From positions 62,001 to 126,000 of the forward strand of contig NZ_CP119780.1 of the NCBI RefSeq assembly GCF_029338195.1: a stretch of 64,000 nt of DNA, written 5' to 3'. The translations under genes and the position numbers were made by a program. Below the pieces are notes generated by a model that had not been told where the DNA came from, searched no databases, and was given only the letters and a program-made list of their open reading frames with translations. This document shows positions 21,662 through 49,276 of this stretch, piece by piece; within the stretch, counting starts at the first letter, position 1, and the number at the start of each line of letters is the position of its first letter. The DNA is from Haloarcula litorea. GTDB taxonomy: Archaea > Halobacteriota > Halobacteria > Halobacteriales > Haloarculaceae.

Positions 21662-21960
21662 CGGAAGTGCTACGTGGCTTTCCCCAACTCGATAATCCGC
21701 GTGGCCGAGAGGGCAGTCGGAGGAGCGAGATTCGAGACCATCGGTGTCGACGGGTAAGCGGGCTGTCGCGGTTGCTGTACGTCAATTACGGAAAGCCGCG
21801 CGAAACCGTATGATCCCAGATACGGTCAGCTATACCTGATCTCCTGTATCTCGCCTGAGATATTATGTGGTCGACGCTCAACGCTGAGTTACGATGCGCG
21901 ATCGAATCGCCAACGTGGGTATCGGCCGTCAGAGTGCGATTGTTCCCGGAGGCGAGTAAT
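21662..21960. other. Intergenic, probable promoter of the next gene
   Basis: No gene seen. A+T-rich stretches CAGCTATACCTGA (about 21829) and GAGATATTATGTG (about 21858) are candidate TATA elements roughly 100-130 nt before the next start. Confidence 0.35.
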
Positions 21961-26501: not shown

Positions 26502-26802
26502 CCGTTCGCATCTTCTTGTTCGCTTGTGGGCTCTCTGGGCGCACTGTCACGGCTCTATGAGTCCTGTCGGGTACTGGTATGACTCACTCGACGGCGACCG
26601 ATAGGTTCGTGATATCTCCATAGATAGCCTCTCAAACCGGTATACTGCAGCACACCTGGTGTCGTATAATTTGCCTGAAATATATCTGTAGCTGGCCGGT
26701 ATCCTCACTCGCAACGATGTCGATATTAGACATCCGCTACACGACAATCGGAAGCGAGGCGACGACCAACCCTCCGCGCAGTTATCTCGGAGGTGAGAGC
26801 TG

Positions 26803-27219
26803 ATGGCGTTCTCCTCCGCGGTGTCCGGGACGGCGTTCCTGCTCGGCCGGGCACTGTTCGCGCTCGTCATCGGCTACCTCGCGCTGGGGAATCTGCTCGA
26901 TCTGGAATCCTCCGTCGGGTACGCGAAGAGCAAAGGGGCACCACTCGCATCGATCACCGTCCCGGTCGGGAGCTTCGGACTCGTCGCCGGTGCACTGGCG
27001 GTTCTCGCCGGTATCTATCCTGCGCTCGGTGCTATTGCGGTGGTCGGCTTCCTCGCCCCGATTACGGTCATCATGCACGACTTCTGGACGATGGAGGGAC
27101 AGGACCGTCAGAACGAACAGATCCACTTCCTGAAGAACGTCGGCCTGGTCGGCAGCGCACTGGTCTTCCTGGCGCTCTCGACGCTCTCGTGGCCGTTCGC
27201 CGTCGGCGTGGGGCTCTGA
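26803..27219 (+). CDS. DoxX-family membrane protein
   Basis: 138 aa with four helices. GRALFALVIGYLALGNLLDL, SKGAPLASITVPVGSFGLVA and MHDFWTMEGQDRQNEQIHFLKN fit DoxX, whose conserved Lys/His/Phe-Trp pattern is readable. Members are linked to thiosulfate oxidation and to redox or radical stress complexes. It starts in an island of redox genes and is followed after 5 bp by an MFS transporter in the same direction. Confidence 0.85.
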   Translation: MAFSSAVSGTAFLLGRALFALVIGYLALGNLLDLESSVGYAKSKGAPLASITVPVGSFGLVAGALAVLAGIYPALGAIAVVGFLAPITVIMHDFWTMEGQDRQNEQIHFLKNVGLVGSALVFLALSTLSWPFAVGVGL

Positions 27220-27224
27220 GACGG

Positions 27225-28775: not shown

Positions 28776-29150
28776 ATGTCTGCTCAAAACGACTCCCGAC
28801 GGAAAGAGATCGAGCAAGAGAACGCATCGGCCTGCCCAGTCATCAACGCGATCGACCAGATCGGCACCCCATGGCGGATGAACGTCATCCACGCCCTGCG
28901 AGACGGGGAGAAACGGTTCAACGAACTCAAGCGTGCGACAGGCGCGCGCTCGAAGACCCTCTCGGACGTCCTCGACGAGCTCGTCGACAACGACGTCGTC
29001 GGCCGGCGTATGGAGGAAGATGCTCCGATCGCCGTCTACTACGACCTCACCACCAAGGGCGACGAACTTCTCGAGGCACTCGAGGCACTCGACGAGTGGG
29101 CCCAGGACTGGGGGGAGGAGGTTCCGTCCGGATCGGGTCCTCGGTCATAG
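28776..29150 (+). CDS. HxlR-family transcriptional regulator
   Basis: 124 aa. Family marks are ACPVINAIDQIGTPW, the helix-turn-helix KRFNELKRATGARSKTLSDV and the wing RRMEEDAPIAVYYDLTTKGDEL. It is 70-80 per cent identical by eye to the protein at 31197 and to the remnant at 21498, so these are recent paralogues. HxlR proteins respond to aldehydes, quinones and other electrophiles, and Bacillus relatives control azoreductase and mhq genes. Its Cys near residue 20 is shared by the paralogues and could be a sensor. Confidence 0.92.
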   Translation: MSAQNDSRRKEIEQENASACPVINAIDQIGTPWRMNVIHALRDGEKRFNELKRATGARSKTLSDVLDELVDNDVVGRRMEEDAPIAVYYDLTTKGDELLEALEALDEWAQDWGEEVPSGSGPRS

Positions 29151-30382: not shown

Positions 30383-30609
30383 GTTTCTGGAGACGGCTCG
30401 ACTAGTCGGGCCAATGATGAACCCCAGAACGGAGTTCGCTTCTTCGAATCACCCCATTCGACATCACTACCTTCTCGGTGTGCCCTGTGACCACTCCTCT
30501 CATCGCCGTCACTCGTTCCGACAGCCGACCGTCGATAACATCAGATACTTTACTGGAAACACTTCCACCGAGAGGTTATCTGGGTGCAGTGCCTTGCTTG
30601 TTCCCAGCT

Positions 30610-31194
30610 ATGAAATTAAAAGGAGATGAACATATAGTCGCCCTGTGCGGCAGTCAACGCGACAGTAGTCATACTCATCGAGCGCTTTCCAAGGCGCTAG
30701 ACGCGGCTGAAGACCGTGGAGCGACGACTGATTTCGTCGAGGTTGCCAGTCTGGACCTCCCGCTGTTTGACCCGGATCACAGCGACGCCGGTGATGCTCC
30801 GGAACTCCGCGACCGGATCGGCGAGGCCGATAGCGTCCTGCTTGGTTCACCGATATACCACGGTTCCTACGCTTCGCCGCTGAAAACCGCGGTTGACTAC
30901 TGTGGGTTCGACGAGTTCGAGGGAAAGACCGTCGGACTGTTGGTTGTCGGAGGGGGTGACTTCCCGACGCCGGCCCTGGAACACCTCCAATCAGTCTCCC
31001 GAGAACTGAGTGCTTGGGTGCTACCCAGTGGAGTTGCGATTCCCAGAGCCCACGAGAAGTTCCAAGATGGCCGCCTCACCGACGAGCACCTGGCCGAGCG
31101 GATAGACACCTTGGGGGCGGAGCTTGTCCGGTACGCTGGGGTCGAATCGTATCCCGAGACAACGACTGGTTGTGCTATTCCGAGGCCCGATTGA
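30610..31194 (+). CDS. NADPH-dependent FMN reductase (azoreductase/quinone reductase-like)
   Basis: 194 aa. Start ATG 30610 follows an A+T-rich stretch; earlier frame is not protein-like. Flavodoxin-fold FMN loop CGSQRDSSHTHR (residues 12-23), LLGSPIYHGSYASPLKTAVD for FMN and subunit contact, and GGGDFPTPALEHL. Relatives reduce quinones, azo dyes and chromate. Only 2 bp separate it from an HxlR regulator, a typical electrophile-sensor plus reductase pair. A close paralogue lies at 51603. Confidence 0.9.
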   Translation: MKLKGDEHIVALCGSQRDSSHTHRALSKALDAAEDRGATTDFVEVASLDLPLFDPDHSDAGDAPELRDRIGEADSVLLGSPIYHGSYASPLKTAVDYCGFDEFEGKTVGLLVVGGGDFPTPALEHLQSVSRELSAWVLPSGVAIPRAHEKFQDGRLTDEHLAERIDTLGAELVRYAGVESYPETTTGCAIPRPD

Positions 31195-31196
31195 TT

Positions 31197-31571
31197 ATGT
31201 GTGCGGAGTCAGAGTCCAGACAGGAGGATATCGAACAGCAGAACGATTCGGCATGTCCAATCGTCAGTACCATCGACCAGATCGGCACTCCATGGCGGGT
31301 GAACGTGATACACGCCCTCAAAGACGGCGAACAGCGGTTTAACGAACTCAAACGTTCAACCGGTGCGCGCTCGAAGACCCTCTCGGATGCGCTCGATACG
31401 TTAGTCGAGAGCGATATCGTCGACCGGCGAGTGGAGGAAGATGCCCCGATAGCTGTCTACTACGGTCTCACCACGAAGGGGCAAGAACTAAACGAAGCGT
31501 TAGGGGCATTAGAGGAGTGGGCCAGAGACTGGGACGAGGAGTTCTCATCCGAGTCTGATGGGCCGCTGTGA
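31197..31571 (+). CDS. HxlR-family transcriptional regulator
   Basis: 124 aa from ATG 31197, two bases after the FMN reductase stop. ACPIVSTIDQIGTPWRVNVI, then QRFNELKRSTGARSKTLSDAL and EEDAPIAVYYGLTTKGQEL. It is a close paralogue of the protein at 28776. Cotranscription with the reductase suggests autoregulated control of that enzyme in response to quinone-like compounds, as known for Bacillus YodB and related HxlR/MarR regulators. Confidence 0.92.
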   Translation: MCAESESRQEDIEQQNDSACPIVSTIDQIGTPWRVNVIHALKDGEQRFNELKRSTGARSKTLSDALDTLVESDIVDRRVEEDAPIAVYYGLTTKGQELNEALGALEEWARDWDEEFSSESDGPL

Positions 31572-31899: not shown

Positions 31900-32091
31900 A
31901 TGACTTGCTCGTATCTGGAATACCGGAGTGAGTCGGATGGTGAGCAGTTCGACCAGCCTCGGGCATACTGCACCGCTACAGACCAGTTCGTCCAGGCGAT
32001 GAGAGCGGATATCTGCAACGACCGGTACGGTCTCGATCACGCGGTCCACTGCGAAATCTACCGTGAGAATACCGAGGACTTGACACCGTGA
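31900..32091 (+). CDS. Small Cys-containing haloarchaeal protein
   Basis: 63 aa from ATG 31900 (an in-frame ATG at 31858 adds 14 residues). MTCSYLEYRSESDG, AYCTATDQFVQAMRADICND and HAVHCEIYRE carry four Cys and His spaced like a small metal-binding or redox protein. Its stop overlaps the GTG start of the following BKACE gene. The family is widespread in haloarchaea as far as I recall; function unknown. Confidence 0.7.
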   Translation: MTCSYLEYRSESDGEQFDQPRAYCTATDQFVQAMRADICNDRYGLDHAVHCEIYRENTEDLTP

Positions 32092-32936
32092 CTTACGAGA
32101 GCTACCTTGCCGGCACGCCGCTCGTCGTCACCGCGGCGCTGACCGGTGGTGTCCACGGGAAGGAGGCGAACCCGAACCTCCCCGAGACCCCGAAAGAGAT
32201 CGGGCGCGCGGCCGCCGCCGCCGAGGCCGCCGGCGCTTCGGTCGTCCACCTGCACGCCCGTGAGCCGAACGGCGAGCGCAGCTTCGCGACCGAACGGTTC
32301 CAGGAAATCGACGACGAGATCCGCCGACACGCCGACGACGTGATTATCCAGCACTCGACCGGGGGAACGGGCGCACCCGATGCGGACCGTCACCTCCCTT
32401 TGCGGACCGATCCGCCCCCGGAAATGGCATCTCTCGACATGGGGCCGCTCAACCGCTACGACCATCTCACCAGTGAGAACACACGCGGGCTGGTTGACTC
32501 GTTGCACGACGAGATGCGCGATCGTGGTATCAAACCCGAACTCGAGGTCTTCAATGACGGCCACCTGAACGAGGTCCACGGGCTGCTCGACCGGCGCGAC
32601 CTCGCCGACCCCGTCTATACGACGCTCATCTTCGGACCCGGAACGCTGACACCGCCGCGGCCGCGGAACTTTCTGAACGCGATCGACAACCTCCCCGAGG
32701 GCGCGCTGTTCAATACGCTCGGGTTCGGCCGTCACCAGTTACCGTTCGCGACAATGGGGACGCTACTCGGCGGCCACGTCCGCGTCGGTCTTGAGGACAA
32801 CGTCTACTACCGCGAGGGAGAGCTCGCCACGAGTAACGCTCAACTCGTTGAACGAGTCGTCCGTATCGCGGACGAGCTCGGGCGGGATGTCGCGACCCCC
32901 GATGAGGCACGTGACATCCTCGGTCTCGACCCCTGA
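32088..32936 (+). CDS. BKACE-family beta-keto acid cleavage enzyme (DUF849)
   Basis: 282 aa from GTG overlapping the previous stop. The metal-binding His pair is in ASVVHLHARE (residues about 47-56), the TIM-barrel strand VIIQHSTGGTGAP is the acetyl-CoA binding loop, and EVFNDGHLNEV and LFNTLGFGRHQL supply later active-site strands. BKACE enzymes, first known from lysine fermentation, condense a beta-keto acid with acetyl-CoA to give acetoacetate plus a CoA ester. Substrate specificity cannot be read here. Cotranscribed with the small Cys protein upstream. Confidence 0.9.
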   Translation: MTYESYLAGTPLVVTAALTGGVHGKEANPNLPETPKEIGRAAAAAEAAGASVVHLHAREPNGERSFATERFQEIDDEIRRHADDVIIQHSTGGTGAPDADRHLPLRTDPPPEMASLDMGPLNRYDHLTSENTRGLVDSLHDEMRDRGIKPELEVFNDGHLNEVHGLLDRRDLADPVYTTLIFGPGTLTPPRPRNFLNAIDNLPEGALFNTLGFGRHQLPFATMGTLLGGHVRVGLEDNVYYREGELATSNAQLVERVVRIADELGRDVATPDEARDILGLDP

Positions 32937-35018: not shown

Positions 35019-36164
35019 TTACTGAGTTCTCAGGAGTCTATGATCCGTTACTTCGTACGTCAGGAGGGTGGCGAATGATATGACTACGAACCCCAAGGCG
35101 GTCAGTGCTTGGAGTCGAGCGCCGATCGGAATCAAGAGAACAATGACGGCCGCAACTACCAGCCCGGGTGCGGGTATTTGAGCAGTTTCACGCCGCTGAA
35201 ATTCGCCACGGCCGAATAAGAAGAGCGCTCCACCGCCGTATAGGGCAACCGTCGGGAGCATCTCCAGGGCACTCCCGAGATGAGAAATAGCCTCTCTGAT
35301 ACCGAGAGCAGTGAAGATGATTCCACAAACGATGAGAAAATGGATGTAGCTATAGGAGACGAGCGCTCGAAGCGCACGCTCGTGTCCTTCTGTATCTGCG
35401 AGTCGCCGTTCTGCCGCCGAAACGAGATAGTCAAAGTACAGCCACCAAAGCGTGATAACGAACCCCATTCCGAGCACGATACCGAGGATTTGGGCCGGAT
35501 CCAAGCTCAGTTCTGTTGCACTGAACCCCATCTTAATCAGTATCTCTCCGAGCGCGACGATGATTATGAGGCGATACCGTTCGACGAAGTGCTGAGCATC
35601 GATGTAGAAGCCTTCATTCCCGCGGATGTACGGCACACCGTAGTCGATCGCAAGCGCACTGGCCCAGAGTGCTCCCTGGGCAGCCCCGTTGAGAAAGCTG
35701 GCAACGATTAAAAGTGCTGGCCCACCGAGAAATCCAGGTGCCAGTCGTCGAACACCCTGTTGAGTCTCCGGTTCAGTACCGAGGATATACAAGCCTATAT
35801 GTAGGACTCGAACCACGAAATACGCGAGACTGAAGAGTAATGCGTGGCCGTCAAAAGCTCCCGGGACGGCTACTGCAACGACGAACATACTTGTTGTCGC
35901 AGTGAGAATGACGAGCCGCCCAGCGAGGGTCTCTGCGGCAGGTATGGCGTCCGTCAACCAGGAGTAGGTTACCCACGCCCACCAGAGCACTCCCAGCAAC
36001 GCTATACCACGAGCCATCCCTTCCCAAGTTAGATTAGCTGATAGAAAATCTACAACCTGGATGAATCCAAACACGAACACCAGATCGAAGAATAGCTCTA
36101 GTGTACTGACCTCCTGTGACTCTTCACGAGTCCTATTTGGAACATCGAGTAGTTCTGAGACCAT
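35019..36164 (-). CDS. Low temperature requirement A (LtrA) family membrane protein
   Basis: 381 aa from ATG 36164. LtrA signature near the N-terminus: STLELFFDLVFVFGFIQVVD; later HFVERYRLIIIVALGEILIKMG, the second conserved block with the acidic Glu. About ten to twelve helices. LtrA is named for a Listeria cold-growth mutant and its molecular role is unknown; haloarchaeal copies are common. The sequence is complete and the gene is separated from its neighbours. Confidence 0.9.
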   Translation of the reverse strand: MVSELLDVPNRTREESQEVSTLELFFDLVFVFGFIQVVDFLSANLTWEGMARGIALLGVLWWAWVTYSWLTDAIPAAETLAGRLVILTATTSMFVVAVAVPGAFDGHALLFSLAYFVVRVLHIGLYILGTEPETQQGVRRLAPGFLGGPALLIVASFLNGAAQGALWASALAIDYGVPYIRGNEGFYIDAQHFVERYRLIIIVALGEILIKMGFSATELSLDPAQILGIVLGMGFVITLWWLYFDYLVSAAERRLADTEGHERALRALVSYSYIHFLIVCGIIFTALGIREAISHLGSALEMLPTVALYGGGALFLFGRGEFQRRETAQIPAPGLVVAAVIVLLIPIGARLQALTALGFVVISFATLLTYEVTDHRLLRTQ

Positions 36165-36302
36165 CTGATATTCCCTCACACGCGATCTATCAACAAATGT
36201 CGAGTCGGCAATTCGCGGTCCCTCTCGGCGAGCGAACTGATGATTTGTAACTCTTGCAGAAGGGATTCAGGTACGGCTCTTCCGCACCGCCATCTCTCGA
36301 AT

Positions 36303-37367: not shown

Positions 37368-37709
37368 CTATAGATGTTCGTCAGCCCAGCATTCGATCTC
37401 GTCGAACACCGGGCACAGCGACGCACCGCTATCGGTGAGAGAGTAGTAGGTGGCGATCGGTTTATCCTCGACACGCCGCTCAACGAGCCCGCCATCCTCG
37501 AGATCTTCAACGACACGCGATAGTGTTCGAGAGTTAGCACCCGTTGATCGCTTGAGTTCGTTGAAACGCTTTTCTTCCGAATTGACGAGATCGTAGAGCA
37601 CAATCAGCCGCCACTCTGATCCAATCTCGTTCACAGCTTCGACAACCGAACACGCGTTCGGGCTTTTGTCCTCCTGTGCTTTCTCGTCCCGGGAATTAAT
37701 CGATGCCAT
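37368..37709 (-). CDS. HxlR-family transcriptional regulator
   Basis: 113 aa. ACSVVEAVNEIGSEWRLIVL, the HTH KRFNELKRSTGANSRTLSRV and the wing RRVEDKPIATYYSLTDSG. It is more distant from the two close paralogues at 28776 and 31197 but keeps the N-terminal Cys. It is divergent from an NmrA-like oxidoreductase gene across 338 bp, its most likely target. Confidence 0.92.
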   Translation of the reverse strand: MASINSRDEKAQEDKSPNACSVVEAVNEIGSEWRLIVLYDLVNSEEKRFNELKRSTGANSRTLSRVVEDLEDGGLVERRVEDKPIATYYSLTDSGASLCPVFDEIECWADEHL

Positions 37710-38047
37710 CGAGATTGTCTGCTGTCATCTTATTGCTGAAGATACAAATAGGTTCGTATTAGAACCAGGTAATATAATGTAACCAGATATCTAGAGGCAA
37801 CCCTGCTGTTACTCTCAGTATTGACGTACTTATGAATCTCTCCGAGGTGAGTGCGTGGTGAGGACTGCTGGAAGCGGGAGCGTTCTGCACGTGAACACAC
37901 GACTCCCCTTCGCTGGTGTCCCCGCAGATATTGGAAACCCGTTCACTACTGTAGTCTTAGTAGACACCGACCAGCTTCCCTTTCATCCGCAGCCAGATAA
38001 CTGAGAGACAGTACTATATTTTAGCGGTCCATCCGATAATTACACTC
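37710..38047. promoter_or_regulatory. Divergent promoter region
   Basis: 338 bp, A+T-rich between HxlR (-) and the NmrA-like gene (+). ACTATATTTTAGC at about 38012-38024 is 24-36 nt before the GTG start at 38048, a strong TATA element for a leaderless transcript. Confidence 0.55.
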
Positions 38048-38917
38048 GTGCAAACAGTCCTCATCACCGGCGCGACCGGGAATATCGGCTCCGTCGTCGT
38101 CCGATTACTCGCTGATTCAGACGTATCCGTGAGAGCGATGACGCGGAGCCCAGAGCGCGTCGGTTGGAGCGAGAATTTGGACGTCGAGGTTGTCAAAGGG
38201 GACTTCATGGCTCCGGAGACGCTGGATAACGCGCTCACTGGAACCGACCAAGCGTTTCTACTCTCCCCGAACGTGAAGCACATGGCCGAGATGCAGTCGA
38301 ACTTCGTCGCTGCTGCCGAACGTGCAGATATAACACACCTCGTCAAACTTTCAGCTGCTGGAGCAGATCCCGATACATCGTGGGACATCGCACGGTGGCA
38401 CGGACGCGTCGAACAGGAAATAGCCGCGTCGTCCCTCGATTACACGTTCATCCGCCCGGTCAGCTATATGCAAAACCTCCTGAACGATGCAGAGACGATT
38501 CGGTCAGAGGGCCAGTTCGGTCGAGCTACGCCGGCAGACGCCAAAATCAACGTCGTTGATACGCGCGACGTCGCACGACTCGTCGCCACGGTACTCCGTA
38601 ATAACGAGCATCGTGGGGCGGTATACAAACCCACCGGCCCCGAACCAATCACGTTCGAGGCCATGGCACAAGCGCTTACCGAGGCTACCGGTACGGAGGT
38701 GGCGTTTCGGGAACTGGCTCCCTCGGAAGCCAAGCGCGCGATTATAAACGACGGTGGTCCGGAGTGGCTGGCAGATGCGATGGTCGGGCTTCAAGTCGCG
38801 TTCGGGGATGGACTCGCCGACCTCAACACGAATGACGTGCACCGAGTCACCGGCGAACCGCCCGGGAGTTTCGCTACGTTCGCGCGGGATCACGCCGAGG
38901 TATTCACTCCTAACTAA
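38048..38917 (+). CDS. NmrA-like NAD(P)H-binding protein (QOR2-like)
   Basis: 289 aa from GTG. The Rossmann motif is LITGATGNIGSVV (residues 5-17), followed by MTRSPERVGW, FLLSPNVKHMAEMQSNF, SAAGADPDTSWDIARWH and FIRPVSYMQNLL. It fits the atypical SDR group of NmrA, HSCARG and quinone oxidoreductase 2, which bind NADPH and reduce quinones or sense redox state. Controlled probably by the divergent HxlR gene. Identification of the exact activity is not possible. Confidence 0.88.
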   Translation: MQTVLITGATGNIGSVVVRLLADSDVSVRAMTRSPERVGWSENLDVEVVKGDFMAPETLDNALTGTDQAFLLSPNVKHMAEMQSNFVAAAERADITHLVKLSAAGADPDTSWDIARWHGRVEQEIAASSLDYTFIRPVSYMQNLLNDAETIRSEGQFGRATPADAKINVVDTRDVARLVATVLRNNEHRGAVYKPTGPEPITFEAMAQALTEATGTEVAFRELAPSEAKRAIINDGGPEWLADAMVGLQVAFGDGLADLNTNDVHRVTGEPPGSFATFARDHAEVFTPN

Positions 38918-40106: not shown

Positions 40107-41072
40107 TCAGTGCTCTCCAGAGCCGATAGACTCGTGATCAAACGGTGGAAGGTGCGCCTCGATCTCCGCGCGTTCGTTCTCCAGCCACTCCGGTAGCGTG
40201 AGCCTCGAACCCAGTTCGTCGATGCTCTCGTCCACTGTGAACCCGGGCTTCGTCGTCGCCATCTCGAAGAGGACGCCACCGGGTTCCCGAGAGTAAATCG
40301 ATTGGAAGTACTTCCGGTCGATGACTTCGGTAACGTGCTGACCGTGGTCGGAGAATGCATCTCGCCAGCGTTCCTGCGCCTCCACATCGGTCACCGTGAA
40401 CGCGACGTGGTGCACTGTTCCGATTCCCATCCGTCCTCGCTCCAGGTCCGTCTCGACGAGATCAATAACCGATCCAGGGTTCTCGCCAGCCGCGCGATAG
40501 CGTCGTCGCCCGTCCGATTCACCATCCAGTTCATAGCCCAACACGTTCGTGAGAACCGACGCAGTCGGCGCGAACTCCGGGACTGCCAGAGTCACGCTAT
40601 GGAACCCCCGGAGTTGGTGGTCAGCTGGAATCGGGCTGTCGTCCCACGGCTCCGCGTCGGCAGCGGCCGCTGCCTCCGAAGCGACGAGTTCGAGACCGAT
40701 TCCGTCAGGGTCTTCGAACGCAAGGACCGCCTCACCGAACCGTTGGCTCTGTTCGACGTCTACACCTCTGGATTCGAGTCGGTCGACCCAGTACTCGAGG
40801 GAGTCCGGTTCGATCAGGTACGCCGTAGCCTGGGCCTGTCCAGCACCGAACTCCCCTCTTCGGCCGCGGTCGGTCCACGGGAAGAATGTGAAGTTCGTCC
40901 CGGGAGTCCCCTCACCGTCTCCGAAGTAGAAGTGGTATGTCTTCGTGTCGTCGTGGTTGACAGTGCGCTTCACGAATCGCAGGCCGAGTGTCTCTACGTA
41001 GAACGAGGCATTACGCTCTGGGTCGCCTGCGATCGCGGTCACGTGATGCAGCCCCGGCGTAGTTACCGTCAT
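40107..41072 (-). CDS. VOC-family ring-cleaving dioxygenase, MhqO-like
   Basis: 321 aa, two VOC modules. The first starts LHHVTAIAGDPERNASFYVE, the hallmark of hydroquinone-type ring-cleavage dioxygenases (MhqO). Metal ligands are His in LHHV, His in TVHHVAFTV and Glu in GVLFEMAT. A strong paralogue lies at 44942. In Bacillus mhqO sits with the esterase mhqD and is induced by catechol and methylhydroquinone; here the esterase and another VOC gene follow within 4 kb. A role in detoxifying quinols is therefore a reasonable inference. Confidence 0.9.
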   Translation of the reverse strand: MTVTTPGLHHVTAIAGDPERNASFYVETLGLRFVKRTVNHDDTKTYHFYFGDGEGTPGTNFTFFPWTDRGRRGEFGAGQAQATAYLIEPDSLEYWVDRLESRGVDVEQSQRFGEAVLAFEDPDGIGLELVASEAAAAADAEPWDDSPIPADHQLRGFHSVTLAVPEFAPTASVLTNVLGYELDGESDGRRRYRAAGENPGSVIDLVETDLERGRMGIGTVHHVAFTVTDVEAQERWRDAFSDHGQHVTEVIDRKYFQSIYSREPGGVLFEMATTKPGFTVDESIDELGSRLTLPEWLENERAEIEAHLPPFDHESIGSGEH

Positions 41073-41421
41073 CGTGGTATTGCATAGGCGATGGATGGGA
41101 ATATGATTTCCCGGGCGTTGGTATCACCTGGTAACGCTAGCGAAAGTCGCCGACGAGGACGTCGCCAAACCGTTATTCAGTTTCCCCAGAAAGGCACTCT
41201 ATGGCGTCTCAGTACAGGTCACGGCGGGATGAGTCGGGCAGAGTTCGGTTCGACGACTCTTGTGTATGCTGTAGTGACACGGGACACCTCATCCAGTCGA
41301 TTCGTGCCAACAGATGTACCGTCCGTCCCAGCCCCTATCGCGTGAACTACTTGACCCTGTATAGTAGCGGTCACGGCACGGCGGCAAATCCGAACCACAC
41401 TCGGGGGTGTCCTGTGTACTG
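41073..41421. promoter_or_regulatory. Divergent promoter region, small ORF possible
   Basis: 349 bp between MhqO-like (-) and SDR (+) genes. A 73-codon ORF on the plus strand (41201-41422, MASQYRSRRDESGRVRFDD) ends on the SDR start codon, but it has poor protein character. GTTATTCAG at about 41170 may be its TATA element. Better regarded as untranslated leader unless shown otherwise. Confidence 0.3.
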
Positions 41422-42135
41422 ATGTCGAGTCGATTCGATTTCGGTGATCGAGTCGTCCTCGTGACGGGCGCGAGTGGCTCACTCGGCACCGCCACCGTCA
41501 GACAGTTCCACGACGCCGGTGCAACCGTCTGTATGAGCGCCCGTAATCCTCCGGAAGACAGCGAAGCGGCTGACCTCCTCGCTTCAGATCGCGTCCATTT
41601 CTATCAGGGGGATTTCACCGAAGAGCCCGCGGTCGAACAAGTGTTTGACTCACTCATCGACGATCACGGGCACCTCGATGCACTCTGTACGCTCGTTGGC
41701 ACGTGGGAAGGCGGTAATCCGATCGACGAGACCGACGTCGATGCGTTCGATTTCCTCATAGATGTGAACCTCAAGACGACTTTCCTCGCCTCGAAGTATG
41801 CCATTCCACATCTCCGCGAATCCGGTGGGACTCTGGTGAGCGTCAGTTCCCGTTCCTCGCTCGAAGGTGGTGAGGGCGATGGTCCGTATCGGGCAGCGAA
41901 AGCCGGCGTCCGACTGCTGACCGAAACGATTGCCGAGGAGAACCTCGGGACGGTGCGTGCAAACGCGATCGTGCCGGATGTCATCGATACGCTGGCGAAC
42001 CGGGAGATGGTGCCCGATGCCGACCCAAGCGCTTGGCCGACGCCAGACGAGATCGCACGCGTGGTCCTTTTCCTCTGCAGCGACACTGCGAGCGTAACGA
42101 GCGGTGCCGCGGTTCCCGTCTACGGGGAGATGTGA
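41422..42135 (+). CDS. Short-chain dehydrogenase/reductase
   Basis: 237 aa from ATG 41422. Cofactor motif VTGASGSLGTATV (residues 14-26), the catalytic Ser in VSVSSRSSLEG, Tyr-x-x-x-Lys as PYRAAKAGV and the late segment RANAIVPDVIDT. Classical SDR of 235-250 aa with NAD(P) dependence. The substrate is not apparent; its position within the quinone/aromatic cluster suggests a carbonyl or quinol substrate. Confidence 0.9.
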   Translation: MSSRFDFGDRVVLVTGASGSLGTATVRQFHDAGATVCMSARNPPEDSEAADLLASDRVHFYQGDFTEEPAVEQVFDSLIDDHGHLDALCTLVGTWEGGNPIDETDVDAFDFLIDVNLKTTFLASKYAIPHLRESGGTLVSVSSRSSLEGGEGDGPYRAAKAGVRLLTETIAEENLGTVRANAIVPDVIDTLANREMVPDADPSAWPTPDEIARVVLFLCSDTASVTSGAAVPVYGEM

Positions 42136-42166
42136 CAGGATGACCTGACCGAGTACCTTGGGCGGC

Positions 42167-42589
42167 TCAGTCCATCGGATGACGCATTAGCTTGCCGTGT
42201 TCGACTTTCATACAGTGGTCCTGAACCACGTCTACTCCGTTTGCTTCTGCCGTTCTTGCAGCCGCTTCGTTCCGAATCCCGGTCTGCATCCAGATGGCCT
42301 GAACGTCTTCACGCGCTACCACTTGGTCGACGATGCTCGGGACCTCCTCACTCGGTCGAAATATCTCGACGATATCGATGGATCGGGGGACGTCGCGGAG
42401 TGAAGCATAAGCTCGTTTTCCGAAGATCTCGTCTGCCGCGGGATTGACCGGTATGATTTCGTAACCGTGTCGTTGCAGGTACGCGGGGATAATGTGAGCG
42501 GACTTCTCGTATGACCTCGAGGCTCCGACGACTGCAACGGTGTTGAGTTCGAGAACCCGTCGGAGCCCATCGTTCTCCTCGATTGGCAT
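42167..42589 (-). CDS. CoA-binding protein (YccU-like)
   Basis: 140 aa from ATG 42589. Rossmann segments VLELNTVAVVGASRSYEKSA, HGYEIIPVNPAADEIFGKRA, RSIDIVEIFRPSEEVPSIVD and IWMQTGIRNEAAARTAEANG are diagnostic of the CoA_binding_2 family. It ends CMKVEHGKLM with the conserved Cys-x-x-x-E. These small proteins bind CoA and may regulate metabolism by thiol chemistry. Convergent with the SDR gene. Confidence 0.9.
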   Translation of the reverse strand: MPIEENDGLRRVLELNTVAVVGASRSYEKSAHIIPAYLQRHGYEIIPVNPAADEIFGKRAYASLRDVPRSIDIVEIFRPSEEVPSIVDQVVAREDVQAIWMQTGIRNEAAARTAEANGVDVVQDHCMKVEHGKLMRHPMD

Positions 42590-42789
42590 ACGGGATCTAC
42601 TCCAGTCATACAAATCAGCGTATCGCCAACGGCTACTCCACGTACTCGGTTCGACGCGCTCTCGTGGCACTTAGTTCAGACGCGTGCCATCACTCCCGGG
42701 TGTGAAATGAGCGATCGGCCCCGCCAGAGAAAGCACCCATCACCCCGAGTCTGTCTCGGGGGCGATTACCGGTGGTTGAGTTGGTGCCA

Positions 42790-42848
42790 CCTGATTTCCC
42801 TAATATTACATATCTTATAATTTTGTGTCCAGCATAACTGCTAATGTA
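42790..42848 (+). promoter_or_regulatory. Strong TATA promoter
   Basis: TAATATTACATATCTTATAATTTTG spans 42800-42824. Its TATA core lies 25-40 nt before ATG 42849, the spacing for a leaderless haloarchaeal transcript. Confidence 0.5.
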
Positions 42849-43058
42849 ATGGAACTACCGAAGGCGAAAGACAACGGAACCGATGCGACCGGCAACCCGC
42901 GGCTGTACGGTACGGACGCACTCGGCGACAGAGCCGCGATCCAAGCGCTGACCGCGTCACTCGAATTCGAACATCGATTGGTCGACCGGAGGGACATCTC
43001 CCCCAACTCTTCTCACCCGAAGACCACGGACGACCGACCAGTGCTCGCTTTCGCGTGA
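42849..43058 (+). CDS. Short hypothetical protein leading the dioxygenase-esterase operon
   Basis: 69 aa from ATG 42849; a GTG at 42825 would lie in the promoter. GNPRLYGTDALGDRAAIQAL and LEFEHRLVDRRDIS look coding. Its stop overlaps the GTG start of the next gene, so the three genes form one operon. No family recognised. Could be a leader peptide or a small partner protein. Confidence 0.5.
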   Translation: MELPKAKDNGTDATGNPRLYGTDALGDRAAIQALTASLEFEHRLVDRRDISPNSSHPKTTDDRPVLAFA

Positions 43059-43900
43059 CGATGGACACAAACGGACTCCCGCAGGGGGCACGTGTCGGAC
43101 GGACAGCACTCACTGTCTCGGACCGCGAGGAGATGACCGAATTCTATCGGCGCGTGGTCGGTCTCAGTATGCTAGACAAGTCTCCCACGACCACGGTGCT
43201 CGGAGTCGATGGGGACCCTCTCCTCATCCTCGAGGAGCACACGGATAGCAACGCACGACCTGGGCCGACTACCGGGCTCTTCCATATCGCCTTCAGGGTG
43301 CCCTCCCGTGGAGCACTCGGGGATGCTCTCGAACGAATCCGAGAGCACTGGCAGCTCGATGGTTCGGCCGACCATCGGGTCAGTGAAGCGCTCTACGTTA
43401 CAGACCCCGAGGGGAACGGCGTCGAGATCTACCGGGACTTCCCGGAGGCGGACTGGTCTGTCGCCGATGATGGTAGCATTCGACTCGGAAATGACCCACT
43501 CGATGTGAACGAGATAGCTGCGGTAGCTGCTGGTGAGACGCAGGCTCCGCCTGAAACAGATATCGGACATCTCCACCTCGAGGTGTCCTCACTGGACGAG
43601 TTCAAACGCTGCTACGTCGATACCCTCGGGTTCGAAGTGAAATCGGAGTTGAAAACCGCAGTCTTCGTCTCCGCCGGGCGGTATCACCACCGCATCGCGG
43701 CGAACACCGGACACAATAAATCGGAGCCACGCCGCGGCCGGGGGTTATCCTGGTTCGAAATTGTCCTGCCAGAGGCGTCGTCGCTCGAATCCCTTCGAAC
43801 CCGTCTCGCAGCCAGTCAGTGGACGATAACCGAGCTTGAAGAAAGTATCTCGATAACGGACTCGGACGGCATCGAGATACGGTTCCGACAGCAACAATGA
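43055..43900 (+). CDS. VOC-family dioxygenase, MhqE/CatE-like
   Basis: 281 aa from GTG overlapping the upstream stop; ATG 43061 is an alternative. Two VOC modules: VGRTALTVSDREEMTEFYRR and GHLHLEVSSLDEFKRCYVDT. Metal ligands are likely His in LFHIAFRV and His in GHLHLEV with Glu in GNGVEIYRD. It resembles catechol-2,3-dioxygenase CatE and MhqE of Bacillus. The downstream esterase overlaps by 4 bp (ATGA), so translation is coupled. Confidence 0.88.
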   Translation: MTMDTNGLPQGARVGRTALTVSDREEMTEFYRRVVGLSMLDKSPTTTVLGVDGDPLLILEEHTDSNARPGPTTGLFHIAFRVPSRGALGDALERIREHWQLDGSADHRVSEALYVTDPEGNGVEIYRDFPEADWSVADDGSIRLGNDPLDVNEIAAVAAGETQAPPETDIGHLHLEVSSLDEFKRCYVDTLGFEVKSELKTAVFVSAGRYHHRIAANTGHNKSEPRRGRGLSWFEIVLPEASSLESLRTRLAASQWTITELEESISITDSDGIEIRFRQQQ

Positions 43901-44535
43901 CAGGTCCACATCAGGATCGTCCCCTCGTGACGGCTGGCGCACCCCTTGATGCCGCTGAGGCTGCGCTCGTTCTCGTCCACGGTCGGGGATCGACTGCCGG
44001 GAGTATCGTCCAGATGGCAGATGAATTCCATCGACACGGTGTCGCGTATTTCGCGCCCCAGGCGGCCCGAAATACGTGGTATCCGAATCGATTCACCGCG
44101 CCGGTCGAATCGAACGAACCCGGGCGCTCCTCTGGCTTGGAGGCCATCGACGACGCCGTGTCGGAAGCCAATGATGCAGGTATTCCGACCGAACGGGTCA
44201 TCGTTCTGGGCTTCTCTCAAGGGGCGTGTTTAGCGTGCGAGTACGTCGCGCGAAACCCACGCTCCTACGGCGGACTCGCAGTGCTGAGTGGCGGTCTCAT
44301 CGGTGAATCTATCGACCGAGGCGATTACCAGGGCGACCTGAAAGGGACCCCTGTGTTCCTCGGGTGTAGCGACGTTGATCCGCATATCCCCGAAGAACGA
44401 GTCCACCAGTCGGCTGAAGTTTTCCAGCAGTTGGATGGTACGGTGGTCAAACGTCTCTACGAGGGGATGAGTCACAGTATTAACCAAGACGAGAGAGAGT
44501 ACGTCTCGGGGATGGTCGCAGACCTCGTCGAGTAG
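43897..44535 (+). CDS. Alpha/beta hydrolase, MhqD-like carboxylesterase
   Basis: 212 aa. Catalytic Ser107 in LGFSQGAC, Asp in GCSDVDPHIP and His in GMSHSI form the triad; the oxyanion strand VLVHGRGSTAGS is near the start. The protein matches the phospholipase/carboxylesterase group that includes MhqD. It directly overlaps a VOC dioxygenase gene, the same functional pairing as the Bacillus mhqED/mhqO genes. The substrate may be a ring-cleavage product. Confidence 0.9.
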   Translation: MTGPHQDRPLVTAGAPLDAAEAALVLVHGRGSTAGSIVQMADEFHRHGVAYFAPQAARNTWYPNRFTAPVESNEPGRSSGLEAIDDAVSEANDAGIPTERVIVLGFSQGACLACEYVARNPRSYGGLAVLSGGLIGESIDRGDYQGDLKGTPVFLGCSDVDPHIPEERVHQSAEVFQQLDGTVVKRLYEGMSHSINQDEREYVSGMVADLVE

Positions 44536-44941
44536 GTAGAACTGGAGGAGCGTTGTGGAGTATGATTTCCGGGAGTGAGGTAGTGACTTCCGTGTCGGGC
44601 ATTCCGACTGGCTACATTTGTACGGATTGATCGAAACGTCACCGTGACGCGTCCGGGAGTGAGGTGGGAGTGGGGATGGGCAGGGGCCCGGACGCGGAGG
44701 TCTGACAGCACGGTGCCGTGGACGGGAGTAGCTCCACGTGTTTGGCGTCCGTCTGAGGGTGGGACGCCATTAGCGTCTACGTCCCGGGGGTATTAATATG
44801 TCATATATAGCTAAAGTTACGAGGTTGCGCTGATGTAACCACCACACCACTAGCCCACTGACACCTGATAACGCTGATGTTAGTTAGTGTGCTAAACACC
44901 ACTTAGATTATAAATGTGTTCGAACATAAAGCGAGGACGAC
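44536..44941. promoter_or_regulatory. Intergenic with promoter of MhqO-like gene
   Basis: 406 bp, no gene. TCCGGGAGTGAGGT occurs twice (about 44569 and 44650). GTATTAATATGTCATATATAG at about 44790-44812 and GATTATAAATG at about 44907-44917 are A+T-rich TATA candidates; the latter is 25-35 nt before the next start. Confidence 0.45.
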
Positions 44942-45895
44942 TTGGCCGACTATACACCAGCCCTGCATCACGTATCAGCGATAGCTGGCGATCCCCAGCA
45001 GAACGTCGACTTCTTCACCGAAGTCCTTGGGATGCGACTCGTCAAGCAAACCGTAAATTTCGATGAGAAATTTATGTACCACCTCTACTACGGGGATCAC
45101 CGGGGTTCACCAGGCTCTCTCATCACTTTCTTTCCCAACCAACGAGGGAGAGAGGGGCGAATCGGTCAACCCCAACCCTCCGCAACGACGTTCGCGGTAC
45201 CGAACGGGGCCATACCGTATTGGCAGGAGCGACTCGACGATCGAGGCGTCGACGTCGATGAGCCAATCGAACGGTTCGGCGAGACCGTGCTCCAGTTCCG
45301 TGACCCCGACGGCCAACGACTAGAATTAGTCGCTCGCGAAACGGACCGGCCTCCAGTGACAGAGTCGTTCCCTCGTAAATACGCAATCCGTGGCCTCTGC
45401 GGTGTCACGCTGTTGTCGTCAAGCGTGTATCACACTGCAGCACTGCTAGAGATTCTTGATTTCTCGCCGGTCGACCAGCAGGGCGAACGTGTCCGCTACG
45501 GCACACCGGATTCGTCTGTTCCCACGATGGATCTGCTCGATACAGAAACATCGTACGGACGGGAGGGAAGTGGGACCGTCCACCATGTCGCGTTCCGAAA
45601 GGGAACCCGATCACTCGAGAAGTGGCGCGAATATCTTTTCGACGCTGGTCTGGAGCCGACGCGAATCAAGGACCGACGGTACTTCAAATCGCTCTACTTC
45701 CGTGGTCCGGGTGGAATCCTTTTCGAGATCGCGACCGAGGGGCCTGGATTCACCATCGATGCGGACAGATCAGAACTAGGGGCAAACTTGCAGCTTCCGC
45801 CACGGTACGAGCCCGATCGAGAGATGATAACCCGACAGCTCCCCGAACTGGCTCTCCCAGATGAACCAGTTGGGCCAGGTCTAGTGCAAGAATGA
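44942..45895 (+). CDS. VOC-family ring-cleaving dioxygenase, MhqO-like
   Basis: 317 aa. TTG is used as start; TATA at 44907 and homology (ADYTPALHHVSAIAGDPQQN) support it, and no ATG fits. Metal ligands: His in LHHVSAIAGD, His in TVHHVAFRKG and Glu in GILFEIAT. It is homologous to the gene at 40107 across its length, so the island carries two MhqO-like paralogues plus an MhqE-like enzyme. Probably cleaves hydroquinone-type compounds; activity unproven. Confidence 0.9.
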   Translation: MADYTPALHHVSAIAGDPQQNVDFFTEVLGMRLVKQTVNFDEKFMYHLYYGDHRGSPGSLITFFPNQRGREGRIGQPQPSATTFAVPNGAIPYWQERLDDRGVDVDEPIERFGETVLQFRDPDGQRLELVARETDRPPVTESFPRKYAIRGLCGVTLLSSSVYHTAALLEILDFSPVDQQGERVRYGTPDSSVPTMDLLDTETSYGREGSGTVHHVAFRKGTRSLEKWREYLFDAGLEPTRIKDRRYFKSLYFRGPGGILFEIATEGPGFTIDADRSELGANLQLPPRYEPDREMITRQLPELALPDEPVGPGLVQE

Positions 45896-45927: not shown

Positions 45928-46980
45928 CTAGAATCCCTGTAGGCCATGAAAATCTCCGCGGGGAACGAGAGGACTCTCGGGCAGACCCGCGCGGGGATTC
46001 GGGTCGTTGAACCCACGCGGTGCGACGTCGTTCGGGGAATCCGGATAGAACAACGACGCGAACGCGTGAATATGTTCTCGACCGACGCTCAGTTCCGTCT
46101 GCCCGCCACCGTACATCTCGATTCCTTCCTCCAGACAGTACTCGATTGTTTCGAGTGCTGATTCGACGGTACCGAACCGTGAGGGCTTGATGTTCAACCA
46201 CTCGGGGTCGAACGGAAGCTGCTTGATGCTCTCGACACTCTTGATTGGATAATCCCAGGTCACGCGACGTTCGTGTCCGTCGAACAGGGGCCGTGTCTCC
46301 TCCGTGAGCTCGGGATCTTCGATGAGAGCGTCAGGGAACCCATCGATTACGCGTTCGTAGAGGGCTGGGTCAGCTGACTGGTCGACTGGCGTGCCGCTGT
46401 ATTTCCCTTTCAGATCGACCACTCGAACGGCCCCAGTCCCGGCTAGCTCCCGAATAGTTTCGTCCGTCCAGCTGGAAGTGGGATCGAGTTTGAATTCCAG
46501 TGACGGAATCATCTTCAACCAAGTGTGGACGCGATCGGTGCTCGGCGGGTCCCCGAGTCTCGTGCTCACAGTGAACCTGACCGGGTCGTACTCGCGGCCT
46601 AGCGCGTCGGCGAGGTCGCTTTCCGCTTGCTTCAACGCCAGATCGAGGGCAGCACTTTCGAACGCCCACCTTCTGTACGGGTGTGAGTCGTCTCGTTTGG
46701 GGGTCGCCGCTGGGAAGAGATCGGTATTATCGAGAGTCTCGGAAAACGACGTATGTGTATACTGGCCCGCGATTGGGAGCCGGGTCGCGTTTTCGACAAG
46801 TCTCCTGTGTAGCTCGGGCTCGTAACTGACGTCCTCCCCGAGACCTGTCTCACCGTCGCCCGAGAGTCGAACGACGCTCGTTACCCGTTTGAATTCGCTC
46901 GATGTCTCCTTCTGATAGAGTCCCAGATCGTAGTTTTCGATTTGAAGCGATAGCTCGGACAGGGGATCATATAATGTCAT
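45928..46980 (-). CDS. Enolase-like superfamily protein
   Basis: 350 aa from ATG 46980. The barrel shows VRVVDLKGKYSG (the Lys-x-Lys strand), ALIEDPELTEETRPL (Glu-Asp ligand), RVTWDYPIKSVESIKQ and LNIKPSRFGTVESALETIEY. There is no clear His for mandelate-racemase chemistry, so it is closest to a muconate-cycloisomerase/o-succinylbenzoate-type member with unusual active-site strands. Haloarchaeal relatives are uncharacterised. It is convergent with the dioxygenase gene and might act on ring-cleavage products. Confidence 0.8.
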   Translation of the reverse strand: MTLYDPLSELSLQIENYDLGLYQKETSSEFKRVTSVVRLSGDGETGLGEDVSYEPELHRRLVENATRLPIAGQYTHTSFSETLDNTDLFPAATPKRDDSHPYRRWAFESAALDLALKQAESDLADALGREYDPVRFTVSTRLGDPPSTDRVHTWLKMIPSLEFKLDPTSSWTDETIRELAGTGAVRVVDLKGKYSGTPVDQSADPALYERVIDGFPDALIEDPELTEETRPLFDGHERRVTWDYPIKSVESIKQLPFDPEWLNIKPSRFGTVESALETIEYCLEEGIEMYGGGQTELSVGREHIHAFASLFYPDSPNDVAPRGFNDPNPRAGLPESPLVPRGDFHGLQGF

Positions 46981-47474: not shown

Positions 47475-48134
47475 CTAATCTTCGCTCGAGAAACCGATTT
47501 CACTGTGGGTCCCATCGCAGAATGGTTTGTTCGCCGACCCTCCACACCGACAGAGTGCAGTCGAGGACTCTCGGACCGTTTCCGTTTCGCCCGCCTGCTG
47601 GAGTTTGAATCGACCCTGAACCTGGACAGGGCCGTCGGGTATCGGCTTGACCGTTAGCACGCCGTCAGCGTCTTCTCCGCGCGAATCTATTTCGGGGGCT
47701 GTCTTCGATCCAGCTGCCTCAAAATCTACGTCGACGTGACTATTGTCACACAGTGGTTTGTTCTCCGACGCCCCACATCGGCACAGCGCAACGCGGGTGT
47801 CCTCAAGCAACGTCGTATCGTCTGGGGTTACGATTTCGATATCCCCTCGAAGATACAGTGGCCCGTCAGGAGAGACGATGATGTGGTTCTCGTCCGGAAC
47901 AGACTCTTCGGGTCCGCTATCTGTCCGTTTGAACTTCAACGCACCAGTCGGGCAGTCCACGATGACCTCTGAGAGGTCGCCAACGTCGGCATTATCCGGA
48001 TCGATCCAAGGTCGCTTGTCAGGGTCGAACACGTCGGGAAGCCCCCGCACGCACTCTCTGGCGTGAATACAGCGGTTGGCGTCGTAGCTCACTTCGATCT
48101 GTTCTCCGGAATAATAGTGGATGTCTTCGTCCAT
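47475..48134 (-). CDS. Ferredoxin-like plus double CDGSH iron-sulfur protein
   Basis: 219 aa from ATG 48134. N-terminal half: YDANRCIHARECVRGLPDVF then IVDCPTGALKF, a divergent (4Fe-4S) mono-cluster domain. C-terminal half has two CDGSH motifs, CRCGASENKPLCDNSH and CRCGGSANKPFCDGTH, each able to bind one 2Fe-2S cluster with three Cys and one His. The combination is known from bacterial and archaeal CDGSH proteins, which act in redox or iron sensing. Single gene, no evident operon partner. Confidence 0.92.
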   Translation of the reverse strand: MDEDIHYYSGEQIEVSYDANRCIHARECVRGLPDVFDPDKRPWIDPDNADVGDLSEVIVDCPTGALKFKRTDSGPEESVPDENHIIVSPDGPLYLRGDIEIVTPDDTTLLEDTRVALCRCGASENKPLCDNSHVDVDFEAAGSKTAPEIDSRGEDADGVLTVKPIPDGPVQVQGRFKLQQAGETETVRESSTALCRCGGSANKPFCDGTHSEIGFSSED

Positions 48135-49021
48135 AGTACGCTTCCTACTGCTTCCAGACTGATGTACTCTGCCAAAAAGTGTCAAATTTGGGGTATTACG
48201 ACCCTGATTATAACTGCCTCGAAAACCCCGCTAATGGGTGTCGCCACTGTACCTGACCGACGTTCGATCAACTTTCGGGGTTCACACTGTGGATCAAAGG
48301 CTTGACCAGTTCCCTGCGAGTGACTCGAAAATAGAACCCTCTCGTTTGTTCTACTAATCGGGGGACACTCCAAATAAGGGTGGATGCTGAACGAAGGGGA
48401 ACACACCTTGCGGTGCGACCAACACTAGCGAAGGGCACTATCACGACGGTGGGAAATATGACTGGCACTATCGCGGGACGGTTGTCGATTACTCGGGTCA
48501 CGAGGCGATGTTCCGACGACGATTCTTCGTCACCTGACGCGACCTTCCGTCTCCTGTCGGGCGTCCGTACCGGTGAGACCGCGAGCGAAATCGGTGAGGC
48601 CAGTACCACAGACCCAAGCGCGGTCGCGTCGGCGTTCCGGGAACATAACGCAGTCTGTGAGTTCGAGGCGTGAACCAAACAGACGACCGATTGCTTACGA
48701 CGTACGACACGACTGACGTTGATCTGTACGCGTTCGTCGAGAGGGTAGAGTTCCCACCGAACTCCCAATCGAACCTGCCCGCTGCCCGTCGACGAGGATG
48801 TCGTATCCGAGCATCCCCGCCAACAGTGTGACCAGGTCGACATCGACGGTACCGTACTCTTGTGATCCGGTCATTAGCTGTCCGTCGGCGGGCCGTCGCG
48901 TTAATGTAGCGGCCGGACGGTCCGGACTTGAGGAGGCCTCACTCTGTCTCGGTGGGTCTCCTCCGGCGAGAGAGCAAGTGAACACTGCTGCTGGTACGGA
49001 CAGTCACGACACCACTTCCAG
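48135..49021. other. Long intergenic, degraded sequence
   Basis: About 890 bp. The plus frame 48672-48800 reads NQTDDRLLTTYDTTDVDLYA and FVERVEFPPNSQSN, protein-like and ending soon; the minus frame 48770-48870 reads YGTVDVDLVTLLAGMLGYDI. Neither has a known family. A stem-loop lies at 48930-48962 (GGAGGCC...GGTCTCCTCC). Probably eroded genes. Confidence 0.35.
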
Positions 49022-49276
49022 TGGTCTGCACCGTATCACCGGCAGGTCGTGGCCGAGTAACAGCGGCCCGTATCCCATCATATAGTCGAGGTACTGATTG
49101 CCGTCGACATCGACGATGTGGGCTCCTTCACCGTGATCGACGAACGACGGATACGGCTGCGGGTCGGGTCGGACTGGCGAGTTCACCCCCCGACCAACGA
49201 TCCGAGCGCCCCGGCTATATAATCGAGCCGATGCCGAACCCGAACGGTCGAACCGCTCGTTCCCGGAGCCGGTCAC
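49022..49276 (-). pseudogene. Glutamate-1-semialdehyde aminomutase (HemL-like), truncated
   Basis: GTG at 49276 overlaps the stop of the upstream amidotransferase gene. GVNSPVRPDPQPYPSFVDHG then GAHIVDVDGNQYLDYMMGYG match the N-terminal 70 residues of the HemL family, after which the match ends (about 49040) in unrelated residues and a stop. The family is about 445 aa, so over 80 per cent is missing. Pyridoxal-phosphate Lys is absent. Confidence 0.75.

Follow-up and report, generated by a model that had tools for sequence, protein, structure and literature searches.

Ring cleavage as a defence against quinones has been worked out in Bacillus and Staphylococcus, and the literature searched gave no paper on an archaeal counterpart. 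In Bacillus subtilis and Paenibacillus, the mhq genes (mhqNOP, mhqED, mhqPOD) place an MhqO-type dioxygenase beside an alpha/beta-hydrolase under the MarR-type regulator MhqR. The Staphylococcus aureus mhqRED/QsrR regulons, also with a MarR-type MhqR, combine a ring-cleavage dioxygenase with a phospholipase/carboxylesterase in a set induced by methylhydroquinone. The catDE genes of B. subtilis are regulated by CatR/YodB (PMC6212828), repressors of the HxlR (DUF24) class. Here we describe a 64,000-nucleotide stretch of the Haloarcula litorea genome (contig NZ_CP119780.1, positions 62,001 to 126,000; hereafter the window), in which genes for two MhqO-like proteins, a CatE-like protein of the vicinal oxygen chelate (VOC) superfamily and an MhqD-like hydrolase lie together at 40107-45895. 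The best reading of this locus is a haloarchaeal counterpart that mixes the mhq and catDE logic of Bacillus. We give a probability of about 0.62 to its serving this haloarchaeon in the detoxification of quinols and catechols, by reduction and ring cleavage.

Like the mhq loci, the window pairs an MhqO-type dioxygenase with a neighbouring alpha/beta-hydrolase and keeps the same metal ligands and second sphere. It differs in its HxlR/DUF24-type regulator, in having two MhqO paralogs, in a hydrolase that scores far under the curated MhqD cut-off, and in additional genes for a short-chain dehydrogenase/reductase (SDR), a CoA-binding protein, an enolase-family protein, a CDGSH protein, an LtrA protein and a beta-keto acid cleavage enzyme (BKACE). 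The S. aureus regulons are bacterial, and no BKACE, enolase or CDGSH partners are described there. With catDE the window shares a CatE-like VOC protein and an HxlR/DUF24 regulator with an N-terminal Cys; unlike catDE, its CatE is paired with a hydrolase and not with DoxX, which lies 16 kb away, and the HxlR gene is 5 kb away. Compared with the hydroquinone 1,2-dioxygenases PcpA and LinE, all eight active-site residues are present (Thr becoming Ser in MhqO2), but similarity reaches only ~181 and 153 bits, and no dehalogenation genes were seen nearby. A predicted glutathione S-transferase (GST) of the Xi class at 21865-22941 is a close homolog of NmGHR from Natrialba magadii (6GZF), work that draws no tie to a ring-cleavage cluster and in which the purified protein had no detected activity.

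Predicted ring-cleaving enzymes and the paired hydrolase

The two MhqO-like dioxygenases named by the original prediction are well founded. Both match B. subtilis MhqO (3oaj) over ~300 residues (E 5e-78 for the protein at 40107, 4e-73 for that at 44942), and B. cereus 1zsw and PcpA (4huz) are likewise matched at full length. The active site of PcpA, which we take to consist of H10, H11, T13, H226, H227, R259, Y266 and E276, aligns at all eight positions with H9, H10, T12, H221, H222, R253, Y260 and E270 of MhqO1 and with H9, H10, S12, H214, H215, R245, Y252 and E262 of MhqO2, where Ser stands for T13. Both proteins thus carry the His/His/Glu metal ligands together with the PcpA second sphere. 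Across an alignment of 90 relatives, MhqO1, MhqO2 and three PDB sequences, this site is complete in 95 of 95 rows, or in 90 of 90 counting only those with the N-terminal columns (T or S was allowed at position 13, and a few rows are truncated N-terminally). The metal ligands of MhqO itself are His11, His218 and Glu266 (PMC12673573). Judged by sequence, MhqO1 and MhqO2 are PcpA/MhqO-type hydroquinone dioxygenases, for which Fe(II)-dependent ring cleavage is predicted. In the tree, members of the MhqO2 clade adjoin MhqD genes, while those of the MhqO1 clade adjoin BKACE, CDGSH and enolase genes. Two further MhqO genes lie on the main contig of this genome, and one of these forms a pair with an MhqD homolog.

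The third VOC protein had been labelled MhqE-like and described as overlapping an MhqD-like esterase. The overlap of 4 bases (43897-43900) between the VOC and alpha/beta-hydrolase genes is real, but the MhqE label does not hold. As a single sequence the protein at 43055 has no PDB match at E<0.001, including to 3oaj, 1zsw or 4huz, all of which the MhqO paralogs match strongly; by sequence it falls outside the MhqO/LinE/PcpA group, its family profile reaching 1zsw weakly (E 2e-10). Its relatives are CatE-type proteins encoded beside DoxX in haloarchaea and Paenibacillus, and they make up a family of their own, in which H77, H107, Y114, E124, H172, H174, H211 and H212 are invariant. A 49-member profile of this family matches homoprotocatechuate 2,3-dioxygenase, placing H77, H107, Y114 and E124 on H214, H248, Y257 and E267. 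H77 and E124 fall on the metal ligands of that extradiol enzyme, and the invariant H172 is, from the arrangement of modules, the probable third ligand of a His/His/Glu site. An AlphaFold2 model (pLDDT 96) is closest to 1zsw, PcpA and MhqO (Z 23.5, 22.2 and 21.9) and does not share the domain arrangement of BphC/XylE (Z ~9 over half the chain); whole-chain Foldseek alignments of the model to classical extradiol enzymes have an rmsd near 20 A, and only module-level matches were used. From sequence and model we conclude that 43055 encodes a CatE-like enzyme folded like PcpA, in which modules 2 and 3, and not 1 and 4, would supply the metal site.

The gene order that CatR-catDE would lead one to expect, HxlR | SDR-DoxX-CatE, is found in plasmids of Natrinema, Haladaptatus, Haloarcula sp. 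JP-L23 and Salinigranum, with the operator described below in between, and DoxX lies directly upstream of CatE in relatives L098-L100 and L103 and in Paenibacillus L204. This is not the case in the window, and the pattern within its own genus is CatE followed by an MhqD homolog and not DoxX-CatE.

The serine hydrolase gene adjoining these dioxygenase genes encodes a homolog of those hydrolases that accompany MhqO, and to that extent the proposed MhqD-like esterase stands. Its score with the curated MhqD model is only 20.6 bits (cut-off 325), and this model stayed below its cut-off in a six-frame search of all 14 control genomes, B. subtilis included. Of 116 genomes of the family, 35 have MhqD no more than 2 kb from MhqO, and 11 have it that close to CatE.

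Partner genes and recurrence in other haloarchaea

The cluster recurs in other haloarchaeal families, Halobaculum and Haladaptatus among them. On a plasmid of Halobaculum magnesiiphilum (L381/L421) the order is DoxX-MhqD (81%)-enolase (61%)-CDGSH (79%)-MhqO and, further on, LtrA, HxlR (66%) and MhqO-MhqD-SDR (73%)-CoA-binding (73%), the percentages being identities. A Haladaptatus halobius plasmid (L210) has HxlR-DoxX-MhqO-MhqD (79%), enolase (62%) and MhqO-SDR (70-73%)-CoA-binding (73%). Other genomes show CoA-binding-SDR-MhqO and then CDGSH-MhqO-enolase-MhqD-MhqO-DoxX (G283), CDGSH-MhqO-enolase-BKACE-HxlR-DoxX-MhqD (G164 and G171), or MhqO (70%)-MhqD (83%)-MhqO-DoxX-HxlR (75%)-BKACE (84%)-MhqO (G253). 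LtrA homologs are present in five of these syntenic loci. In 20 random regions of similar size no partner gene family reaches its threshold.

When the presence of partner genes in 15-kb regions was compared with random regions, the power was low for all but the anchors, HxlR (P=0.01) and BKACE (P=0.05); this comparison was replaced by a coordinate-based adjacency test on the 116 family genomes. In 37 of 103 genomes the best ortholog of HxlR37 (the HxlR protein at 37368) is encoded no more than 2 kb from MhqO, MhqD or CatE, against a chance of ~0.4% per gene, and BKACE is that close to MhqO, MhqD or HxlR in 9 of 14 family genomes. MhqO-MhqD and CatE-MhqD neighbours, too, are far commoner than chance would give. 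When the four MhqO and two CatE-MhqD units of the H. litorea genome are placed at random, the density seen in the window has P ~1e-4. Some cluster genes of relatives look broken or split (an MhqO1 in G253, L397:9785-10157; MhqD in G051 and G075, L090:737-1364 and L181:3062-3608), so copies have been lost as well as gained.

All genes named in the original prediction are present in the list of open reading frames (ORFs), and its SDR, FMN reductases, glutathionyl-hydroquinone-reductase-like protein and enolase-like protein were each recovered (Table 1). The cluster is larger than that list, comprising also the CoA-binding, CDGSH/4Fe-4S, LtrA, BKACE, DoxX and HxlR genes; the CDGSH/4Fe-4S family is a repeated neighbour of MhqO1.

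Single-sequence matches of the enolase-superfamily protein at 45928 are weak, and a profile match to the OSBS/NSAR family has E 2e-9. In the alignment and PDB profile search it keeps the metal ligands D256, E288 and D310 along with K332. The second Lys of the KxK motif is replaced by Asp233, which is invariant in all 28 sequences. The replacement of this catalytic lysine led us to reject both muconate cycloisomerase and OSBS as assignments for this protein. This KxD group has no Pfam match and is found in 261 of 293 Halobacteriales genomes; in L303, L311, L315, L317 and L318 its gene is closely paired with a CoA-binding protein gene where MhqO is absent.

Table 1. Cluster genes, regulators and other features of the window (positions counted from its first letter; PWM, position weight matrix)
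Feature	Coordinates	Strand	Evidence and remarks
Xi-class GST/glutathionyl-hydroquinone reductase homolog	21865..22941	+	6gzf (Natrialba magadii) 374 bits
DoxX-like membrane protein	26803..27219	+	PF07681 24.9 bits, barely above cut-off; 36-47% identity with proteins encoded at nine related loci
Second HxlR with N-terminal Cys	28776..29150	+	PF01638 67.5 bits
NADPH-dependent FMN reductase family, possible quinone reductase	30478..31194	+	PF03358
Third HxlR with N-terminal Cys	31197..31571	+	PF01638 65.5 bits; ORF opens at 31014, putative start given
BKACE	32088..32936	+	PF05853 293 bits, full-length; 2y7d 176 bits
LtrA family membrane protein	35019..36179	-	PF06772 254 bits; 49-54% orthologs in L136, L381-L384
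HxlR/DUF24-family repressor (HxlR37)	37368..37709	-	PF01638; invariant Cys20, near-invariant Cys99
Predicted HxlR operator TATTACCTGGTTCTAATACGAACCTATTTGTA	37743..37774	-	Upstream of HxlR37; highest-scoring PWM site in the window
NmrA-like NAD(P)-binding protein	38048..38917	+	PF05368 105.6 bits; divergent from HxlR37 across the operator
MhqO1, putative PcpA/MhqO-type two-domain VOC ring-cleaving dioxygenase	40107..41072	-	3oaj 265.7 bits; PcpA 4huz 181 bits
SDR oxidoreductase	41407..42135	+	PF13561; orthologs in L210, L381, L382 (70-73% identity) adjoin MhqO/MhqD/CoA-binding gene
CoA-binding (CoA_binding_2) protein	42167..42670	-	PF13380 139.6 bits; 69-73% orthologs in L081, L210, L381, L382
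CatE-like putative two-domain VOC dioxygenase	43055..43900	+	Predicted metal ligands H77, E124, H172
MhqD-like alpha/beta-hydrolase	43897..44535	+	GFSQG nucleophile motif; PF02230, PF01738; 4h0c 187 bits; starts 4 bases before end of CatE ORF
MhqO2, second putative PcpA/MhqO-type dioxygenase	44942..45895	+	MhqD-paired clade; 3oaj 249.8 bits
Enolase-superfamily protein	45928..46968	-	ORF from 47181, with the conserved start at its codon 72; beside MhqO in L087, L382-L384
Divergent 4Fe-4S and two CDGSH domains	47475..48185	-	PF06902, PF09360; 65-79% orthologs beside MhqO in L181, L381, L383, L384
FMN reductase	51603-52199	+	PF03358
PIG3-like quinone oxidoreductase family protein	52202-53167	+	PF13602; quinone_pig3 173.7 bits, under cut-off 296.8

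The window has a GC content of 61.8% and gave no match in an Rfam scan. Its replicon is a contig of 284,460 bases, one of three in a genome of 3.79 Mb, and looks like a plasmid-like or secondary replicon since it has its own Orc1/Cdc6 gene. In a comparison with plasmid DNA no record covered the region. Two proteins of the DUF7347/DUF7351 winged-helix type, at 29288-30382(+) and 50517-51431(-), each lie near an HxlR and an FMN reductase gene and resemble two copies of one small module. A short class-III aminotransferase fragment at 49004-49276(-) is probably a pseudogene remnant. Further away are a bacteriorhodopsin-like gene followed by a PAS/histidine kinase gene (18199-20503) and another response-regulator/PAS/kinase gene (14049-15845).

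HxlR regulators and the predicted operator

The regulator near the cluster is of the HxlR and not the MarR type; a MarR-like helix-turn-helix protein is encoded at 11640, 26 kb away. HxlR37 and its orthologs combine the HxlR fold with a conserved N-terminal cysteine, Cys20 being kept in 49 of 49 and Cys99 in 45 of 49. This is comparable to YodB and CatR, with their Cys6/Cys7 logic and C-terminal Cys (PMC6798810).

A perfect inverted repeat, GGTTCG-N4-CGAACC, was found de novo upstream of 10 of the 49 orthologs (shuffles gave at most 1), and with up to 2 mismatches it precedes 33 of them, compared with 4% of shuffles. The operator consensus is CGTTACCTGGTTCG-N4-CGAACCTATATAT, in extended form CGTTACCTGGTTCGnatCCGAACCTATaTATn. 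The window's site scores 40.0 with the PWM, or 33.6 if it is excluded from training, and the next different site scores 2.8. The simple pattern with 3 mismatches has 62 matches in the window where 67 are expected, and thus only the PWM discriminates. The 20 random regions contain no operator, and the reversed pattern has 0 matches in 12 genomes.

In 3.94 Mb of sequence scanned there are 62 operator sites, most of them between HxlR and DoxX, MhqO, MhqD, NmrA or SDR-DoxX-CatE. Sites adjacent to HxlR are partly circular evidence, because the matrix was trained there. This does not apply to the seven sites without an adjacent HxlR gene, which precede CatE (Haloprofundus L096, Halospeciosus L212), LtrA (L081), DoxX (L105, L208, L301) and a VOC gene of Halococcus (L209). 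The H. litorea genome itself has two sites with up to 3 mismatches, each before an HxlR ortholog, and the chromosomal one faces DoxX. In L209, L210, L382, L383, L384 and L077 two operator copies lie exactly 106 bases apart between HxlR and DoxX, a spacing that suggests paired binding or two promoters.

Proposed pathway, alternative explanations and significance

Judged from its genes, the cluster is an archaeal version of the ring-cleavage defence that bacteria mount against quinones, with a regulator-operator pair conserved at the family level and additional partners. Going by their families, hydroquinones would be produced from quinones or thiol-quinone adducts by the two FMN_red proteins, the Qor-like protein and perhaps the Xi-class GST homolog, for which acting on thiol-hydroquinone adducts would be a fitting role. 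MhqO1 and MhqO2, as Fe(II) enzymes with the observed PcpA residues, would cleave p-hydroquinones between C1 and C2, and the CatE-like enzyme would cleave catechols at a predicted His/His/Glu site, whose residues are seen in its modules 2 and 3. The MhqD-like hydrolase may hydrolyse the ring-opened product, and the SDR, CoA-binding, enolase-family, CDGSH and BKACE proteins might handle downstream products. The reaction expected of BKACE is cleavage of a 3-oxo acid with acetyl-CoA, and 3-oxoadipate is an obvious candidate among beta-keto acids. Regulation in the gene family would rest on a redox-sensing HxlR akin to CatR and YodB, which would repress from GGTTCG-N4-CGAACC, sites placed by comparison near the starts of target genes, and would be released once electrophiles modify the conserved Cys20 and Cys99.

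The idea of hydroquinone ring opening is supported for the two MhqO paralogs by their complete PcpA/MhqO active sites and for the cluster by the recurring synteny. "Mhq-like", as the locus was first called, is too narrow a label, because the esterase-paired VOC protein resembles CatE and the regulator is one of the CatR/YodB class and not MhqR.

Several observations weigh against a detoxification cluster of this kind. In the window, the PWM scan found no operator above chance before any of the MhqO1, CatE, MhqD, MhqO2, enolase and LtrA genes; the weak match upstream of MhqO2, at 44909, does not rise above background. HxlR control, as originally proposed, is supported for the gene family, where orthologs adjoin MhqO, MhqD, DoxX and CatE and share an operator, but not for the window's dioxygenases, since the operator here stands only before the HxlR/NmrA pair; the HxlRs at 28776 and 31197 are candidates for the MhqO1, CatE and MhqO2 promoters. 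DoxX and BKACE sit 7-16 kb off the core. No CatE lies within 2 kb of any MhqO in the family sample, which makes the window's CatE-MhqD-MhqO2 order unusual. The adjacency P values ignore shared ancestry. Finally, a single purified haloarchaeal Xi-class GST showed no activity (PMC6345682).

It is doubtful that the cluster is mainly catabolic, using plant- or lignin-derived aromatics as a carbon source and passing the ring-opened product through the SDR, enolase-like, CoA-binding and BKACE proteins to acetoacetate and acyl-CoA. In favour, BKACE is a recurrent neighbour, and among curated models 3-oxoadipate:acetyl-CoA acetyltransferase comes second for it, at 204.7 bits and under the cut-off. Moreover, beta-ketoadipate is a substrate of one group of BKACE enzymes (PMC4922564), and the lignin dimer DDVA induces mhqPOD in Paenibacillus (PMC12673573). 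However, BKACE often occurs without MhqO nearby, no recognisable maleylacetate reductase is among the window proteins scanned, the sole transporter of the major facilitator superfamily (26793-28427 region) has no known link, and the regulator is of a redox-sensing kind.

That the VOC proteins act on something else (such as thiol adducts, an endogenous quinone or menaquinone by-product, or a non-aromatic electrophile) and that ring cleavage is not their main role seems quite improbable. VOC proteins span glyoxalases, thiol transferases and dioxygenases, several NCBIfam models of these kinds match weakly, and 3OAJ was solved with zinc (PMC12673573), but the PcpA second-sphere residues are all kept along with the ligands and the CatE profile favours extradiol dioxygenases. 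A patchwork of unrelated plasmid genes without joint function is very improbable: the genes lie on both strands with gaps of 300-400 bases and so do not form one operon, and an aminotransferase fragment, a GATase and the membrane ORF at 39155 lack cluster homologs, but the synteny strongly disfavours it, the same set of gene families recurring in other haloarchaeal families and in 0 of 20 random regions.

Detoxification by reduction and ring cleavage is the reading we prefer. A bolder extension, tentative and rather unlikely, is that haloarchaea own a dedicated HxlR-controlled quinol-degradation pathway, in which two PcpA-type enzymes and a CatE-type enzyme would open the ring and the KxD enolase subgroup, CoA-binding, CDGSH and BKACE proteins would carry the product to a 3-oxo acid cleaved with acetyl-CoA, a beta-ketoadipate-like outlet without the usual enzymes.

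If the detoxification reading is true, haloarchaea would share with Bacillus and Staphylococcus the logic of reducing, cleaving, hydrolysing and sensing by cysteine, with a different set of genes. The predicted operator makes the idea a testable regulon, and there are relatives of the cluster in Haloferax, where deletions are routine. The KxD enolase-superfamily group, the CDGSH/4Fe-4S protein, the CoA-binding protein and LtrA, all haloarchaeal families still unassigned, would gain a genomic context.

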